This document shows, piece after piece, positions 5,108 to 59,326 of a stretch of 64,000 bases of DNA; the stretch's first letter is position 1, and each line of letters begins with the position of its first letter. Source of the stretch: Gemmatimonadetes bacterium 2013_60CM_65_52 (GTDB taxonomy: Bacteria; Gemmatimonadota; Gemmatimonadetes; Gemmatimonadales; Gemmatimonadaceae); the NCBI GenBank assembly GCA_002215645.1, contig NGFI01000005.1, positions 426,678 through 490,677 on the forward strand, in the 5' to 3' direction. The notes under the pieces were generated by a model. The model did no database searches. It worked only from the letters and a program-made list of their open reading frames with translations, and was not told the DNA's origin. The translations under genes and the position numbers were made by a program.

Positions 5108-5692
5108 TTGAGTCCCCTCGAGGGAGTCGCCGCGCTCATTGGCGCGATCAGCGTCTATCTGAGCGTCCGTCAGAACATCTGGAGCTGGCCGACGGCCATC
5201 GTCAACGTGGTCATCTACGCCCTGGTGTTCTTTCAGGCGAAGCTCTACGCCGACATGGGACTTCAGGTGATCTACGCCGCCCTCTCGGTGTACGGCTGGT
5301 ACGAGTGGCTCTATGGCGGTGCGCAGCACACCGAGCTCCACGTCACACGAACAGGACCCTCGCTTGGCGCGCGCCTCGTTGGTATCGCGCTGACCAGCTC
5401 CGTGGTCCTGGGCCTCGTGCTCGAACGGACGACTGACGCCGCGCTGCCGTTCGTGGATTCGTTTCTCTCGAGCACGAGCCTCGTCGCGCAGTGGATGATG
5501 ACGAAGAAGAAACTGGAGAACTGGCTCGTCTGGATCGGCGTCGACGTGCTCTACGTCGCCATGTTCACCTTCAAGCATCTGTATCTCACGGCCGGCCTGT
5601 ATGCGGTGTTCCTCGTGCTGGCCGTGCGCGGCTACGTCGACTGGAAACGATCGATGGCTGAGCGTGCGATGGAGGACGCGGTCGCGGCGTGA
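5108..5692 (+). CDS. pnuC: PnuC-family nicotinamide riboside transporter
   Basis: PnuC proteins move unphosphorylated vitamin nucleosides across the inner membrane by facilitated diffusion; a cytoplasmic kinase traps them. The 194-residue protein has about seven transmembrane segments and the family signatures NIWSWPTAIVNV, LQVIYAALSVYGWYEW and WMMTKKKLENWLVWI. The TTG start follows a GGAAAAGG ribosome site. The stop overlaps the start of the nadR-like kinase by 4 bp, strong evidence for a shared substrate. A homologous subgroup (PnuT) carries thiamine; nicotinamide riboside is preferred here because of the kinase, although a TPP-riboswitch-controlled receptor lies next door. Confidence 0.88.
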   Translation: MSPLEGVAALIGAISVYLSVRQNIWSWPTAIVNVVIYALVFFQAKLYADMGLQVIYAALSVYGWYEWLYGGAQHTELHVTRTGPSLGARLVGIALTSSVVLGLVLERTTDAALPFVDSFLSSTSLVAQWMMTKKKLENWLVWIGVDVLYVAMFTFKHLYLTAGLYAVFLVLAVRGYVDWKRSMAERAMEDAVAA

Positions 5693-6240
5693 CGAGTCGG
5701 GTCGATGCGGGCCTCCTCACGATCTGTGTCACAGGGCCGGAGTCCACGGGCAAGACGACGCTCGCGCGTCGTCTTGGAGAGCAACTGTCCGTGGAATGGG
5801 TGCCCGAAGCGTCGCGGCTCTACGCGGAGCGGATCGGCCGAGACTTGAGTGTGATCGACGTCGAGCCGATTGCGCGGGAGCACATCGCGCTCGCGGACGC
5901 GGCGCGGGCCCGCGCCATCGGGGTGGGCGCCTCGGTACTCGTGCTCGATACGGACCTCGCGAGCACGGTCGTGTATGGGAAGCACTACTATGACGTCGCC
6001 GTGCCGTGGCTCGACGCGGCACTCGTGGAGCGCCGCGCCGATCTCTACCTCTTGTGCGATACGGACGTGCCGTGGGTCGCAGACGGCATCCGCGATGCGC
6101 CGGCGCATCGGGATGAGGTGTTCGCGTCGTTCGGCGAAACACTGCGACGTATGAACGCGCGGGTGGAAGTGATCAGAGGACAGTGGAAGACGAGATGGTC
6201 ACAGGCCTGGGAGATTGTTGGTAGGACGGTAGGACAGTAG
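5689..6240 (+). CDS. nadR: NadR-type nicotinamide riboside kinase
   Basis: The 183-residue protein is a P-loop ATPase of the AAA_28/NadR C-terminal type, with Walker A GPESTGKTTLARRL, the PEASR motif and the nucleoside-site segment LVLDTDLASTVVYGKHYY. It should phosphorylate nicotinamide riboside to NMN and so trap substrate brought in by PnuC. The N-terminal repressor and adenylyltransferase domains of enterobacterial NadR are absent, so this is a kinase only. It begins with GTG inside the pnuC stop (GTGA). Its last codons (R-T-V-G-Q-stop) are made of the TAGGACNN repeat element, suggesting the repeat has replaced the original C-terminus. Confidence 0.82.
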   Translation: MTSRVDAGLLTICVTGPESTGKTTLARRLGEQLSVEWVPEASRLYAERIGRDLSVIDVEPIAREHIALADAARARAIGVGASVLVLDTDLASTVVYGKHYYDVAVPWLDAALVERRADLYLLCDTDVPWVADGIRDAPAHRDEVFASFGETLRRMNARVEVIRGQWKTRWSQAWEIVGRTVGQ

Positions 6241-6250
6241 GACAGCAAAC
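6222..6250 (+). repeat. TAGGACNN octamer repeat, left arm only
   Basis: Three head-to-tail 8-bp units (TAGGACGG, TAGGACAG, TAGGACAG) are followed by CAAAC. This equals the left arm and core of the full palindromes at 9700 and 57646. The repeat overlaps the end of the nadR coding sequence and provides its stop codon. Confidence 0.85.
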
Positions 6251-6257
6251 AAGAGCG

Positions 6258-8345
6258 TCAAAACGACAGGCGCGCATTCACCGAGACATTCCGGGGCGCG
6301 AGGATGTAATAGTACGGCTCCTGCGCGTTCGGATCAGAGCTCCCTGCCAGCGCGCCCGGGTAGCCGCCCGTGTAAACCCGCCGGTCGAAGACATTGCGCA
6401 CCTGCACGAGCAGCGATTGCCCCGCAACGTGAAGCGTTGTGCCCGCATCGGCGTACCAGGCGTCGGGCACGGCGAACCGCGGATCGCCCGTGTTGGTGAG
6501 CATCATGCGCGACACGTAGCGTCCGTCCACGTCGAGCGACAGCCACGGCGCGAGCTCCGCTCGCACACCCTGGTTGCTGACGAGCCTGGGCGTCATCAGC
6601 GGTGTGACGTCGTGATAGGCAGTGCCGGACGCGTCGTCGACGTACTCATGAATCCGCGCCTCGGTGACCGCCGCGTTCGTCACCAGCGCCAACGACGGCG
6701 TCGCCTGCCAGACGAGATCCGCCTCCAGACCGCGGCGCATGGAACGATCGACGTTCTTGCGCAGCTCGTAGCCGATCTCGTTGATCGCCCCAATCGCGGC
6801 GATCTCGTTGTGGAACCGCATGAGAAACAGATTCGCCTGGGCGCTCAGCGTGCCGCGGTGGACGGTCAGCCCGCTCTCGAGATCGTACGCCGTTTCCGGA
6901 TGCACGCGTGTGAGCGGCAACACCGAGCGCGCCTGCACGCTGTCGATGTCGTCGGCGCCGGCAAACATGTCGGAGCGGGTGGGCTCGCGGCCATTCATCC
7001 CCACGCTGGCGTACGCGGTGACGCCACTCATCGCGGCGACGCTCATGCCCACCTTCGGATTGACGAACGACCACGTCACCGAGGGCGATGGAACCGGCGT
7101 GCCCGCGGTTGGTTGATAGCGAAACTGCACGAAACGAAGCTGGAGATCGCCAAAGGTGGTCATGCGTCCCCGCGACACGGCGCCCTTGGCGAACACGCTC
7201 TGCTCACCCTTGTAGCCGGTGTTGTCGTAGAGACGTGCGTCGAGCGCGGGACGCTGCTCGAGCCAATGCTCTCGGCCATATCGTGCGACGTTCAATCCGA
7301 CGGACGCGGAGGCGGCCTCCGATTGCCAGTCGAATGCGCTGCTGATGCCGCCCCAGCGCGAATGCAGATTGTAGTGATATGCGTCGCTCAGGCCGTTCGT
7401 GCCGGGATAGTCGTACCATCCTCCGGCGTCGAAGCCGTACAACGTCGTCGCCACGCGGGCCGCGTCGGACAGTGCGTGAGTCCACGCAACGCTCAGCAGA
7501 TCCTGGTGAAAGCGGTCGGTGACCTCGTCCTCGGGGCGGTTGCCGAAGGGATTGTCGCGCGGCGCAGCTCGCAGCACGGATAGTGGCGCGGCGTAATAGG
7601 CCTGATCGTTCGACGACAGTCCGGCGAGCAGGCTGACCTTGACGATGTCTCGCGACCCGAACCATCCGCCGCTGGCAAATGCGCTTCGAGAACGATTGCC
7701 CGAGTTGAATCGATATCCATCGGTACGCTGCGACGAGCCGCGCACGTAGCCCGCGAAACCGCTCGGCGAGAGACCACTCTGGAGGACGAGGCTCTCACGG
7801 ATCGTGTTGTACGATCCGCTCGTGAGCTGAATCTCGCCGCCGCGGCGTACGCTGCCAACGGGGATGGATTCGAAATTCACCGAGCCCGCGTACGATGCCG
7901 TGCCGTACGCGCTCGACCCCACGCCGCGCTGCACCTGCACCGAGGAGATGCTGTTCGCGAAGTCTGGAAAATTCGAGAAGTAGAGCGCCTCGTCCTCGGG
8001 CTCGTTGAGCGGAATACCGTCGAGCGTGATGTTGATGCGCGTCTGATCGATTCCGCGGAGGCGGATGTACGAGTAGTTGGACGCCGAACCGCTCTCGGAG
8101 TACGCGGTGACGCCGGGCGCTCTCTGGAGGAGGATTGGCGTCTCCTGGCCGGTGTAGCTCCGCTGAAGCTCGGAGCGAGTGATGGTTTGCGCGGAGATTG
8201 GCGCTGCGCGGCCGCGAATGGCGGTGACCTGAACGGCCTCGAGCTGTTGTGCCCGACGGACGTGAGTCGAGTCGCGGGCCGAGTCGCCCGGGATGATGAC
8301 CTGCGGGACTGTCTGCAGGAGGAATGCAACGGTAAGGGTCAGCAC
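6258..8345 (-). CDS. TonB-dependent outer-membrane receptor, probable thiamine uptake
   Basis: The 695-residue protein has a signal peptide (LTLTVAFLLQTV), a plug domain (VQVTAIRGRAAP; APGVTAYSESG; IRLRGIDQTRINITLDGIP; VQVQRGVGSSAYGT), a long beta-barrel and the usual terminal phenylalanine (NARLSF). I start it at the GTG at 8345, which has a GGAG ribosome site 6 nt upstream. Longer in-frame versions would translate through a TPP riboswitch and lack a signal peptide. The riboswitch makes thiamine or a thiamine phosphate the likely ligand, as for the THI-box-controlled receptors of Bacteroidetes. It converges on the pnuC-nadR pair. Confidence 0.88.
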   Translation of the reverse strand: MLTLTVAFLLQTVPQVIIPGDSARDSTHVRRAQQLEAVQVTAIRGRAAPISAQTITRSELQRSYTGQETPILLQRAPGVTAYSESGSASNYSYIRLRGIDQTRINITLDGIPLNEPEDEALYFSNFPDFANSISSVQVQRGVGSSAYGTASYAGSVNFESIPVGSVRRGGEIQLTSGSYNTIRESLVLQSGLSPSGFAGYVRGSSQRTDGYRFNSGNRSRSAFASGGWFGSRDIVKVSLLAGLSSNDQAYYAAPLSVLRAAPRDNPFGNRPEDEVTDRFHQDLLSVAWTHALSDAARVATTLYGFDAGGWYDYPGTNGLSDAYHYNLHSRWGGISSAFDWQSEAASASVGLNVARYGREHWLEQRPALDARLYDNTGYKGEQSVFAKGAVSRGRMTTFGDLQLRFVQFRYQPTAGTPVPSPSVTWSFVNPKVGMSVAAMSGVTAYASVGMNGREPTRSDMFAGADDIDSVQARSVLPLTRVHPETAYDLESGLTVHRGTLSAQANLFLMRFHNEIAAIGAINEIGYELRKNVDRSMRRGLEADLVWQATPSLALVTNAAVTEARIHEYVDDASGTAYHDVTPLMTPRLVSNQGVRAELAPWLSLDVDGRYVSRMMLTNTGDPRFAVPDAWYADAGTTLHVAGQSLLVQVRNVFDRRVYTGGYPGALAGSSDPNAQEPYYYILAPRNVSVNARLSF

Positions 8346-8349
8346 AACG

Positions 8350-8381
8350 CGCTCCGTGTCTCGTTTTGACGCGAGGGAGCG
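8350..8381 (-). promoter_or_regulatory. Shine-Dalgarno-sequestering hairpin of the riboswitch
   Basis: On the minus strand CGCTCC (8381-8376) can pair with the ribosome site GGAGCG (8355-8350), with an inner CTCG/CGAG stem stacked below. The same CGCTCCC (8381-8375) is also complementary to GGGAGCG (8448-8442) at the 3' edge of the TPP aptamer. The two pairings exclude each other, as expected for a translational switch. Confidence 0.65.
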
Positions 8382-8435
8382 GCTGCCCGAGGCAGGATGG
8401 ACGCGGCATGAGGTGCCGGACGTCCCGCAGGAGGC

Positions 8436-8525
8436 CAGTGACGCTCCCTTCGCTGGAATTACCCAGATCAGGTTCGACGGGTGTGATCTCAGCCCGCGAG
8501 CCTCCGCGGGCACCCCGTGCCACTG
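8436..8525 (-). promoter_or_regulatory. TPP (THI-box) riboswitch
   Basis: Read on the minus strand, the segment holds the conserved THI-box cores in order: ACGGGGTGCC, GGCTGAGATCACACCC, GAACCTGATCTGGGTAA, and CCAGCGAAGGGA. The outer P1 stem forms from CAGTGG (8525-8520) and TCACTG (8441-8436). It lies 91 nt upstream of the TonB-dependent receptor GTG. TPP riboswitches lower expression when thiamine pyrophosphate is plentiful. Confidence 0.95.
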
Positions 8526-8651
8526 CACTAATAATAACGGATCGGTACCGGGACACAAACGGCCGTGCACCCCGCCGCGTATGTCATTCAGCCGTCAGGT
8601 TCCCAAGCATACCATTGAGGGCTCTTCAACCCACGCACAATGAGGTTCGGT

Positions 8652-9699: not shown

Positions 9700-9775
9700 T
9701 AGGTCAGTAGGATTGTAGGACAGTTGGACAGCAAACGCCGTCACTGTCCTACCGTCCTGCTGTCCTACTGCCCTA
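9700..9775 (+). repeat. TAGGACNN palindromic octamer element, complete copy
   Basis: Four 8-bp units (TAGGTCAG, TAGGATTG, TAGGACAG, TTGGACAG) are followed by CAAAC, a 7-nt spacer, and four inverted units (CTGTCCTA, CCGTCCTG, CTGTCCTA, CTGCCCTA). The arms can form a long hairpin. It begins 11 bp after the beta-propeller gene and ends 11 bp before the proposed GTG start of the dipeptidase gene. Confidence 0.9.
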
Positions 9776-54636: not shown

Positions 54637-54660
54637 GGTAGGACAGGAGGACGTCCTACC
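54637..54660 (+). repeat. TAGGAC-type mini palindrome
   Basis: GGTAGGAC (54637-54644) is followed by AGGAGGAC and the inverted arm GTCCTACC (54653-54660). It looks like a short, single-unit version of the TAGGACNN palindromes. Confidence 0.6.
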
Positions 54661-56095: not shown

Positions 56096-57490
56096 TTAGT
56101 AGGAGTACTTGAGGCTGAACGACACGATGTTGGCGTTCAGCGTGTATGCGCCACTGCTCAGCGCGAGGGCCTGCGTCGCCGTGATGTTCGCCGGGCGCTC
56201 GTCGACGCGTCCACGCGACCCGCCGGTGAAGATGTGCGCATAGGTGGCATCGACGCCGAGGCCGCCGCCGAGCGGCAGGTAACCGCCGATCATGCCGAGC
56301 TGGCGGTCCATTTCCGGGAGGAGCGGCGTAACGGTCTCCGCGGGCGCGGCTGACGCGGCGGCCGCGAATCCACCTCGCAACGCGGCGCCGTTCGTCATGC
56401 GCCGCTCGATGCCCAGGCGCAGGGAGGACGTGTTGTTGTAGTCCTCCTGGAGCACGCGGGACGGAGCGGTTCCCTTGAAGTTGACCGGCAATTGCTTGAA
56501 CGACTTCCATCCGACGTACGCGAAGTCCGCACTCAGCGTGGTGTTGGCAAATCCGGTGTAGGCCAGTCCGGCCTGCACTTGTGCGGGATGCTGGATCTCC
56601 GTCGCGACCTTCTGCGTCGTGAGCGCGCCGCTGCCCGTGAACTGCGAGGCGACGATCGCATCGACTGACGTGTTAGCCGGCGCACCCAATGGATTGCCGG
56701 CGGCGAGCGTGAGCCCCGTCGGCATCTGCACGAACGTGGCGTCCGCGTCGTCGTACGAGAAGGTGACCTGCGAGAGGAAGCGCAGCCCCACCTGCCACTC
56801 GGGCGAGAGACGCCCGTGTACACCGAGATTCACGCCGTACGCCATCGCGCTGCCCTTGAGAGTGGCGCGCGCGAACTCGGTGTATTTCGGGATCCCGAGG
56901 TTGCCGAACGTTAGGCCCGCCGCCGGCACCGCCAACTGGCCGGAGAGATCGATCGCCTGAACGAGCTCGATGGAGGAATGGCCGATGACGGGCCCGCCGC
57001 CGATGGACCAGTCGGGGTTGATCTGGTACGAGATGTTCGGTTGGACGTAGATGGTCTGAAGCGAGGCCTTCTTGGCGGCGAAGCGGCCGGGGAAGTCGTC
57101 GCCCCACTGCGAGGTCAGCCCGTAGGGAACGTAGAGTCCGATGCCGTAGGCGAGATTTCCCGCGCGGTAATTGAGAAACACGTGCGGAACGAACGCCGTG
57201 GGCACGTCGGACTTGTACACGCGAAAGGAGGTGTCGCGCGTGAAGTCGCCGTCGATCTTGATGACGGCGCCGCCGCCGAGGAAGCTCAGCCCTTGTGCGC
57301 CAGGCATCGCACCGGGATTCCAGTAGATGCTCGACGGGTCCGCGCACGGCGCGCTGGTGACCGCGAAGCCGCGAGCGAGCGCGCACGACCCGATCTCATT
57401 GAGACCGAAGGCCTGACCATGAGCGGCGTACGGCGCGCCGAGCAGCGCCGCGAGAGTGAGGGCGTACCGTGAGGCACGGTGAAGCGTCAT
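56096..57490 (-). CDS. FadL/OmpP1-family outer-membrane transporter
   Basis: The 464-residue protein has a signal peptide (ALTLAALLGAPYAAHGQ) and the FadL/OmpP1/TodX layout. The N-terminal hatch region is FGLNEIGSCALARGFAV, then ADPSSIYWNPGAMPG (the conserved NPA-like NPGAM box). A beta-barrel follows, ending in aromatic Tyr (SFSLKYSY). The family takes up long-chain fatty acids and aromatic hydrocarbons. ATG 57490 has an ideal AGGAGG site 6 nt before it. It lies first in a two-gene unit with the GDSL hydrolase. Confidence 0.9.
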   Translation of the reverse strand: MTLHRASRYALTLAALLGAPYAAHGQAFGLNEIGSCALARGFAVTSAPCADPSSIYWNPGAMPGAQGLSFLGGGAVIKIDGDFTRDTSFRVYKSDVPTAFVPHVFLNYRAGNLAYGIGLYVPYGLTSQWGDDFPGRFAAKKASLQTIYVQPNISYQINPDWSIGGGPVIGHSSIELVQAIDLSGQLAVPAAGLTFGNLGIPKYTEFARATLKGSAMAYGVNLGVHGRLSPEWQVGLRFLSQVTFSYDDADATFVQMPTGLTLAAGNPLGAPANTSVDAIVASQFTGSGALTTQKVATEIQHPAQVQAGLAYTGFANTTLSADFAYVGWKSFKQLPVNFKGTAPSRVLQEDYNNTSSLRLGIERRMTNGAALRGGFAAAASAAPAETVTPLLPEMDRQLGMIGGYLPLGGGLGVDATYAHIFTGGSRGRVDERPANITATQALALSSGAYTLNANIVSFSLKYSY

Positions 57491-57645
57491 CTGCATCCTC
57501 CTGAATGGCGCGCGGGAAAGTGTCGCGCGATCGTGTGCCGGAAGAACCACACGGCAGGGGCGGAAAGGGGAAAGCGGACAGAGGCGAACAGGGCGGCAAT
57601 ATAAGGTGACCTACGGGCCTTTGTCGCTAGCCGGGACAAATAAAG

Positions 57646-57732
57646 TAGGACGATAGGACACTAGGACGGTAGGACAGCAAACGTCGCGGTTCCGCCGTTA
57701 CTGTCCTACTGTCCCACCGTCCTACTGTCTAC
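57646..57732 (+). repeat. TAGGACNN palindromic octamer element, complete copy
   Basis: Four units (TAGGACGA, TAGGACAC, TAGGACGG, TAGGACAG) are followed by CAAAC, an 18-nt spacer and four inverted units (CTGTCCTA, CTGTCCCA, CCGTCCTA, CTGTCTAC). It is the most regular copy. It ends 4 bp before the malate synthase ATG, so it must form part of that gene's leader or promoter. Confidence 0.92.
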
Positions 57733-57736
57733 GCAA

Positions 57737-59326
57737 ATGACCGACATCACTAAGGGCGTGCGTCTCCTGGCCGGCATGCCACCTGACGTGCACCACGTGC
57801 TCACCCCCGAGGCGCTGGCCTTCGTCGCCGCGCTGCACCGCCAGTTCAATGGGCAGCGTGTGTCTCTGCTCGAGGATCGGCCGCGCCGGCGCGCGGAGCT
57901 CGCTGCCGTCGAGCCGGGTGTGTCATTCGACTTTCCCGCCCACACGGCGGCCGTGCGGGCCGCGGCATGGCGCGTGGCGCCCGCGCCGGCCGATCTGAAC
58001 GATCGCCGCGTGGAGATCACGGGACCGGTGGATCGGAAGATGATGATCAACGCGCTGAACTCCGGCGCGCGCGTCTTCATGGCGGATCTCGAAGACTCCT
58101 GCTCGCCCACCTGGGCGAACGTGGTCGAGGGGCAGCGCAACCTCATGGATGCGGTGCGGCGAACGCTGTCGCTCGACCAGCAGGGCAAGGCGTACCGCCT
58201 CGGAGAATCGCTCGCGACGCTGCTGGTGCGCCCCCGTGGCTGGCACCTCGTCGAACGCCACGTGGAGATCGATGGCGCGCCGGCCTCCGCGTCGCTCTTC
58301 GACTTCGGCCTCTACTTCCATCACAATGCCCGCGAGCTGCTCGCGCGTGGGAGTGGGCCGTATTTCTACCTGCCGAAGCTCGAGAGCCATCGTGAAGCGC
58401 GGCTCTGGAACGAGGTGTTCGTCGTCGCACAGGAAATGCTCGGCGTCCCCCGCGGCTCGATCCGCGCGACGGTACTCATCGAGACGCTGCCGGCGGCGTT
58501 CGAGATGGAGGAGATCCTGTACGAGCTGCGCGAGCACGCCGCCGGCCTCAATGCCGGCCGCTGGGACTATCTCTTCAGCTTCATCAAGACGTTCCGCGAG
58601 CGGCCGGACAAAGTGTTGCCGGATCGGGCGCAGTTGACGATGACGGTTCCGTTCATGCGCGCGTACTCGGAGCGACTCGTGCAGGTGTGCCACAAGCGCG
58701 GCGCGCACGCGATCGGCGGTATGGCGGCTTTCATTCCAAGCCGGCGCGACGCGGAGGTGAACGCGCGCGCGTTGGCGAAGGTGCGCGAGGACAAGGAGCG
58801 TGAAAGCGCCGCCGGATTCGATGGTACATGGGTGGCGCATCCTGACCTCGTGCCGGTGGCGCAGGCGGTGTTCGACGGGGTGCTTGGCAGCCATCCGCAT
58901 CAGAAGGATCGTCTCCGCGACGATGTCGCGACGACCGCACCGCAGCTCATCGACGCCGACGTCCCGGGCGGCGCGATCACCGACGCGGGCATTCGCACGA
59001 ACGTCGAGGTGGCGATTCTCTACATCGAGGCGTGGCTGCGCGGGTTCGGCGCGGTGGCCATTCACAATCTCATGGAAGACGCCGCCACCGCGGAGATCAG
59101 CCGCACGCAGCTCTGGCAGTGGATTCGCCACGAGGCGCCAATCGACGCCGGGGGGCGTATGTCGCGCGACTTCTATTTGCGCATTCGCAAGGAAGTCCTG
59201 GAGCAGCTCTTAGCCCAGCCGAATGCGGGCACCGAGCTCTCCGCGGCAGCGGCACTTCTCGATACGCTCGTGGAAGGAGAGTTCGAGGACTTCCTCACCG
59301 TCCCTGGCGGGAAGCTGCTGGACTAA
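57737..59326 (+). CDS. aceB: malate synthase A
   Basis: Condenses glyoxylate and acetyl-CoA to malate in the glyoxylate cycle, allowing growth on acetate and fatty acids. The 529-residue length is that of the A form. Family blocks are [93 protein letters not shown] (Mg2+ ligand Glu) and [16 protein letters not shown]. No isocitrate lyase is in the window. The ATG at 57737 is only 4 bp from the repeat element. A FadL/GDSL pair nearby would supply fatty acids. Confidence 0.94.

Follow-up and report, generated by a model that had tools for sequence, protein, structure and literature searches.

What is a palindrome built from tandem 8-bp units, and how did it come to lie between two genes? The question is raised by positions 57646-57732 of the window (the whole 64,000-nucleotide stretch of DNA that was analysed), where two inverted arms of such units enclose a short core. 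The initial annotation had reported this palindrome together with a second complete copy, a half copy and a mini palindrome, and had considered three roles for them, namely mRNA ends, protein-binding arrays and REP-like mobile units. Upon re-reading, the sequences and coordinates of all four sites proved correct; the copies and the neighbours of the main one are as follows.

6222..6250 (+): one-armed copy, three units, then AG and CAAAC
9700..9731 (+): left arm of the second complete copy, units TAGGTCAG TAGGATTG TAGGACAG TTGGACAG
9732..9745 (+): core of the second complete copy, opening with CAAACGCCGTCAC, which is the family core CAAACGCCGTTAC with one change
9746..9775 (-): right arm of the second complete copy, four units
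54637..54660 (no strand assigned): mini palindrome, TAGGACAG GAGGAC / GTCCTA, without the CAAAC core
56096..57550 (-): gene of an OMPP1/FadL/TodX outer-membrane transport protein, neighbour of the main copy, divergent from malate synthase
57646..57677 (+): left arm of the main copy, units TAGGACGA TAGGACAC TAGGACGG TAGGACAG
57678..57700 (+): core of the main copy, opening with CAAAC, with GCCGTTA at its end, ahead of the right arm
57701..57731 (-): right arm of the main copy, three TAGGAC-type units on the - strand and a truncated fourth (CTGTCTA)
57737..59326 (+): malate synthase gene, neighbour of the main copy, its start codon shortly downstream of that copy

Altogether, the window contains 15 matches to TAGGACNNTAGGAC (up to 2 mismatches) versus 1.4 expected, about ten-fold over chance. 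An AAA_28 gene (5689-6240) ends within the one-armed copy, using its third TAG (6238-6240) as stop codon. Elsewhere in the window, a TPP riboswitch at 8427-8527 (-) scores above its curated threshold; it sits within the listed open reading frame 6258-8570 (-), a TonB-receptor gene whose true start is probably near 8400 and which may encode a thiamine-related transporter.

The initial annotation had described one plan shared by the four sites, and further copies occur throughout the 4.2-Mb genome that contains the window (G000). In particular, the two-unit pattern TAGGACRGTAGGACRG has 68 matches there with up to one mismatch, compared to 1 for the reversed control, and 119 with up to two mismatches, compared to 5. 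Among the matches listed, there are at least 43 separate array loci; the genomes studied here are mostly MAGs, and all copy numbers are lower bounds. The anatomy of the element was examined in 849 kb of this genome, a sample partly picked because matches were there, which contains 31 arrays and for which a codon-usage script called 711 genes (91% coding). The consensus is (TAGGWCRG)2-5, often followed by CAAAC and the rest of the core, and then by the inverted arm. The 8-bp phase is strict, as had been noted, and the composition of 155 units (in %) is T88 A92 G97 G96 A69/T20 C97 G46/A45 G92, so that positions 3, 4, 6 and 8 are conserved, and positions 5 and 7 vary; the detector introduces some bias at positions 1-6, but this does not explain why position 7 contrasts with position 8, or position 5 with its neighbours. 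Hence, the last two letters of the unit, initially taken to be free, are constrained, position 7 being A or G in 92% of the units.

The remainder of the proposed plan turned out to be looser than described. The supposedly constant CAAAC core is common only: GGACNGCAAAC follows an arm exactly in 8 of the 31 loci and with at most one mismatch in 18, and CAAACGCCGTTAC or a near match to it is present in several two-armed copies. Arms range from 2 to 5 units rather than having a fixed number of four; loci with a single arm and loci with both each make up about half of the total, and the element is about 50-90 bp long. Most outermost units have a G in front of them and so begin with GTAG. In an unbiased scan of the same genome, 8 inverted array pairs were found versus 0 direct ones. 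The order of the unit variants is scrambled in this genome, where whole-element copying is therefore invisible. A second family of inverted tandem arrays, with CACAGAG-type units of 8-9 bp, was also encountered in G000 (C13:194332-194445, C13:285962-286030 and C9:127456-127507).

All 31 arrays in the sample are intergenic. The flanking genes are co-directional at 18, convergent at 6 and divergent at 5 of 29 loci, which matches the background of all gene pairs (0.71/0.15/0.15); the elements are thus best described as gene-junction, not gene-end, elements. Accordingly, the proposed gene-end placement is too narrow, all three gap orientations being used as expected; the main copy itself lies not at a gene end but in a divergent gap, between gene starts at 57550 (-) and 57737 (+). 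The orientation of the core is not tied to the gene strand, and the genes beside the arrays, such as sufB/sufC, dnaX/ybaB and malate synthase, share no theme. The initial description largely holds as to the sites, the family and the 8-bp phase, whereas the core is not constant, the unit number is not fixed and the gene-end placement is too narrow.

Arrays are faced by 31 gene 3' ends, and in 14 of these the stop codon coincides exactly with the TAG of the first, second or third unit (5, 5 and 4 cases, respectively). Since 8 equals 2 modulo 3, three TAG-bearing octamers supply stops in all frames. Such stops follow from the unit itself carrying TAG, once an element sits at the end of a reading frame; selection might also have favored this stop ladder.

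Comparison of orthologous junctions shows that entire elements are gained (or lost) between species. In G002, a member of the window's genus, the L087 junction measures about 178 bp and contains an element, versus 1 bp in G000; the L071 junction, where a conserved block (TTTCGGTNTATCTTCAGGGG) lies downstream of the inserted DNA, measures about 300 bp versus 77, and the L069 junction 297 bp versus 139. Similarly, three junctions of G010, a representative of another genus (g2), measure 161 bp versus 29 (L094), 101 bp versus 42 (L090) and 115 bp versus 38 (L095); conversely, the dnaX-ybaB junction is occupied in G000, whereas that of G010 lacks an element. The direction of change can be judged, from several relatives with short gaps, for the sufB-sufC junction only. 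A conserved non-coding block, GGCATGGTAGGGCGGACGCAGCCGCCTGAGAGTAGCACCGGCATCG, was observed upstream of a gene both at L069, downstream of the element, and in G000 (C13:226500-226660); an Rfam search of L069 gave no match.

Once gained, the elements appear to be inherited. In G010 and G139, two members of genus g2 with DNA 77-83% identical at these loci, about five junctions are filled in both, compared to a chance expectation of about 0.2, as estimated from the loci fetched and some 3000 junctions per genome; therefore, these elements are old residents. Between such orthologous elements, the number of units varies and the arms diverge, and one arm may consist of identical units that are absent from its partner arm, changes of the kind that slippage would produce. 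Counting outwards from the core, 28 of 43 arms in G010 have TAGGGG or TAGGAG as their second unit, whereas the other units are mostly TAGGAC; the best explanation for such an order, which loci have in common, is that elements were copied whole. Between G010 and G000, the cores AACGCCGTTTACC and AACGCCGTTAC are alike, as are AACGCCGTT in G010 and the shared core CAAACGCCGTTAC of G000, so that the families of these two genera are probably related.

How far does this kind of element extend? Across 179 genomes of the family, abundance of the unit is confined to G000, G002 and three members of genus g2 (G010, G139 and G137); the fourth, G138, has 3 matches. The named genomes with the same arrays belong mostly to Gemmatimonadota and Bacteroidales, and a search of named genomes for the exact pattern of arm plus core found none. 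Long arrays of TAGGAC octamers were seen in the Bacteroidales KA21, Md513_bin82 and CSMAG_1948 (L106-L132), several of them at contig ends, and the gamma proteobacterium HdN1 (L130) has one such array. Three-unit matches were also obtained in 39 viral contigs (L135-L173); the five contigs that were checked encode a conserved protein segment (TGLVLPSYRPNLL or close to it) through the three-unit stretch, within open frames of 102-121 aa in three and 35-39 aa in two of them. Because the stretch reads as protein there, these matches were not counted as arrays and are probably a false lead.

As for the plan, rather than the unit, the same arrangement was found in related genomes with other 7-9-bp units. 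When 771 kb from 20 relatives were scanned without bias, 10 inverted pairs of tandem arrays were found versus 0 direct pairs, with 0 for the reversed and 2 for the complement control; all units in the inverted pairs are 7-9 bp long and they differ from one another. In G023, a fixed palindrome of 88-89 bp with two GACAGGAT units per arm is dispersed (81 two-unit matches in all) and shows a few compensatory changes. This palindrome can also be seen nested inside longer repeats (L214-L247, in G023 and G024), and G024 contains related 8/9-bp units and GGGCAGGA. At one and the same junction, sufB-sufC, TAGGAC units are found in G000 and G010, CCGTGAA-type units in G003 and G008, ATCAGCC in G019 and TGCAGAG in G014 (both arrays direct) and a 9-bp unit in G006, while the gap is short and free of any array in G018, G004 and G020, with some sufC starts being uncertain in this comparison. 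Tentatively, one could imagine that Gemmatimonadota share a class of gene-junction palindromes with a constant plan and species-specific tandem units of 7-9 bp, in which some trans-acting process other than RAYT spreads the current unit. If true, a process that recognises and spreads the current unit of each species would explain the different units at the sufB-sufC junction.

Taken together, these data make it reasonably likely that the family consists of non-autonomous dispersed palindromic repeats, REP- or MITE-like, of about 50-90 bp. In this scenario, the element, two inverted arms of tandem 8-bp units around a short core, would be gained between genes as a whole, by a transposition-like dispersal, and inherited afterwards. 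Replication slippage would be the simplest way for the arms to gain and lose 8-bp units, and their decay would yield the half copies. The restriction to gaps would reflect selection against insertions elsewhere, and insertion at a gene end might be tolerable inasmuch as a TAG per unit on an 8-bp phase provides stops in all frames within three units. Two-armed copies, if transcribed, would form strong hairpins in both directions, with no sign of retention for that. Of the three roles originally considered, the REP-like mobile unit thus fits best as regards the dispersed, extragenic copies, the filled and empty junctions and the shared cores; the RAYT connection and the build of a REP are the parts of that proposal that do not fit.

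Several observations sit uneasily with dispersed palindromic repeats. Elements with the same arms can have unrelated cores, some of them apparent intrinsic terminators (L072 in G002 and L094 in G010), which is unusual for a single mobile family. At L072 (585-748) and L094 (4279-4408), octamer arms surround an apparent intrinsic terminator with a T-run as the core. The conservation of positions 3, 4, 6 and 8 and the variability of 5 and 7, positions 1-6 being partly detector-biased, could mean recognition by a protein. As to the hallmarks of a MITE, inverted arms are present, and the borders are repetitive, masking any target-site duplication; no mobilising transposase was identified for the family.

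It appears unlikely that we deal instead with an RNA element, a palindrome that is transcribed at gene ends and whose hairpin terminates or protects mRNA. Complete copies do fold at -46.8 to -53.6 kcal/mol (z about -6 to -8 versus shuffles), which, following as it does from the palindrome, is by itself no evidence for an RNA role; many copies directly follow a stop codon. The few compensatory changes in the G023 family and the somewhat greater likeness of mirrored units in G010 (p 0.018) point in the same direction, albeit weakly. In G000, however, likeness is not greater between mirrored units than between non-mirrored units (0.792 versus 0.795, p 0.79); the arms are not maintained as complementary, and a hairpin kept by compensatory change was rejected for this genome. 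Furthermore, the gene contexts are those expected from all pairs and the core ignores the gene strand, about half of the loci are one-armed, and the half copy that was tested, at 6222-6250, forms no strong hairpin. A test for intrinsic terminators (a stem followed by a T-run) revealed none at the main copy; across the sample, the detector found one site at the 31 loci and zero in 60 control gaps and is too strict to decide. An Rfam search over the element returned only miRNA models far below thresholds, so that no family covers it. The proposed dedicated role at mRNA ends is therefore not upheld.

Quite unlikely, too, is an array of DNA-binding sites, in which a protein, e.g. a nucleoid or regulatory one, would recognise the phased GTAGGWCR unit. 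Strict phase, position-specific conservation of the unit and the lack of local homogenisation in G000 would all be understandable on these grounds. Scattered recognition sites were looked for and rejected, single units outside arrays not being enriched in gaps (15 versus 12 for the reversed control); the neighbouring genes have no common theme, and one and the same junction can hold quite different units in different relatives.

A purely local origin, with arrays growing in place by slippage and template switching and no dispersal at all, would agree with the recurrence of 7-9-bp unit sizes across many genomes with unrelated units, as well as with the single TAGGAC at the stop codon of a G000 gene whose G002 orthologue has an array. 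Such an origin is nevertheless improbable, considering that a single genome has one unit, often together with one core, at tens of loci, that unit variants are ordered in G010 and that the arms in G000 are not mirrored. Finally, a classical REP moved by a RAYT transposase, for which the dispersed extragenic palindromes and the GTAG that mostly begins the outermost unit might speak, is hardly credible: none of the carriers G000, G002 and G010 has the RAYT-type (Y1_Tnp) gene that the initial annotation suggested looking for, PF01797 having no match there although control genomes do match, the PF01797 gene of G023 is not close to a copy of the G023 element, and tandem-octamer arms differ from the build of a REP.

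Inverted arrays of short units are found in several phyla. The filled and empty junctions, the sharing of sites between sister species, the ordered variants and the differing units at one junction provide handles for telling slippage and mobility apart, and the stops that the units supply in all three frames would be a simple explanation for the tolerance of these elements at gene ends.

Which of the known repeats resemble this family? The STRR heptamers of cyanobacteria are tandem 7-bp units in intergenic DNA; to our knowledge, they have not been described as inverted pairs around a core. The present arrays share with them the short tandem units and the intergenic location, and differ by arms that are inverted around a core. 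Text searches of the literature for the letters of the unit gave chance matches, none of those listed concerning a bacterial repeat. REPs measure 20-40 bp and have an unpaired tag, either GTAG or CGTC, on one side, and the CGTC class also occurs without a dedicated transposase (Di Nocera et al. 2013, PMC3733652). Like REPs and BIMEs, the elements described here are multi-copy, dispersed extragenic palindromes; unlike the single tagged hairpin of a REP, they comprise 2-5 tandem octamers with a paired GTAG in every unit, and their carriers lack a RAYT gene. The TAACTGA heptamer repeats (MacGregor 2015, PMC4679880) are likewise short tandem units that occupy many gene gaps, are patchy in distant lineages and have no known mechanism, but they are almost only direct repeats and lie mostly just 5' of start codons, whereas the present arms are inverted and show no such preference.

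The nearest described case is that of the inverted GGGAATC heptamer arrays of Xanthomonas (Rehm et al. 2015, PMC4692102). According to that paper, which also cites the cyanobacterial heptanucleotides of Calothrix, one genome contains 186 arrays with 70 inverted pairs, there are 70-75 inverted pairs per genome, and 89-93% of the arrays are intergenic; they have mostly four units, lie at a mean distance of 28 nt from the upstream gene and are unlinked to gene function or mobile elements. Dispersed intergenic arrays of tandem 7-9-bp units and frequent inverted pairing are features of both families. The Xanthomonas unit is G-rich, 7 bp long and studied as a G-quadruplex former, whereas the present unit has 8 bp; and, while the parts of the paper that were read describe no conserved core, the family reported here has a common core and both filled and empty orthologous sites.
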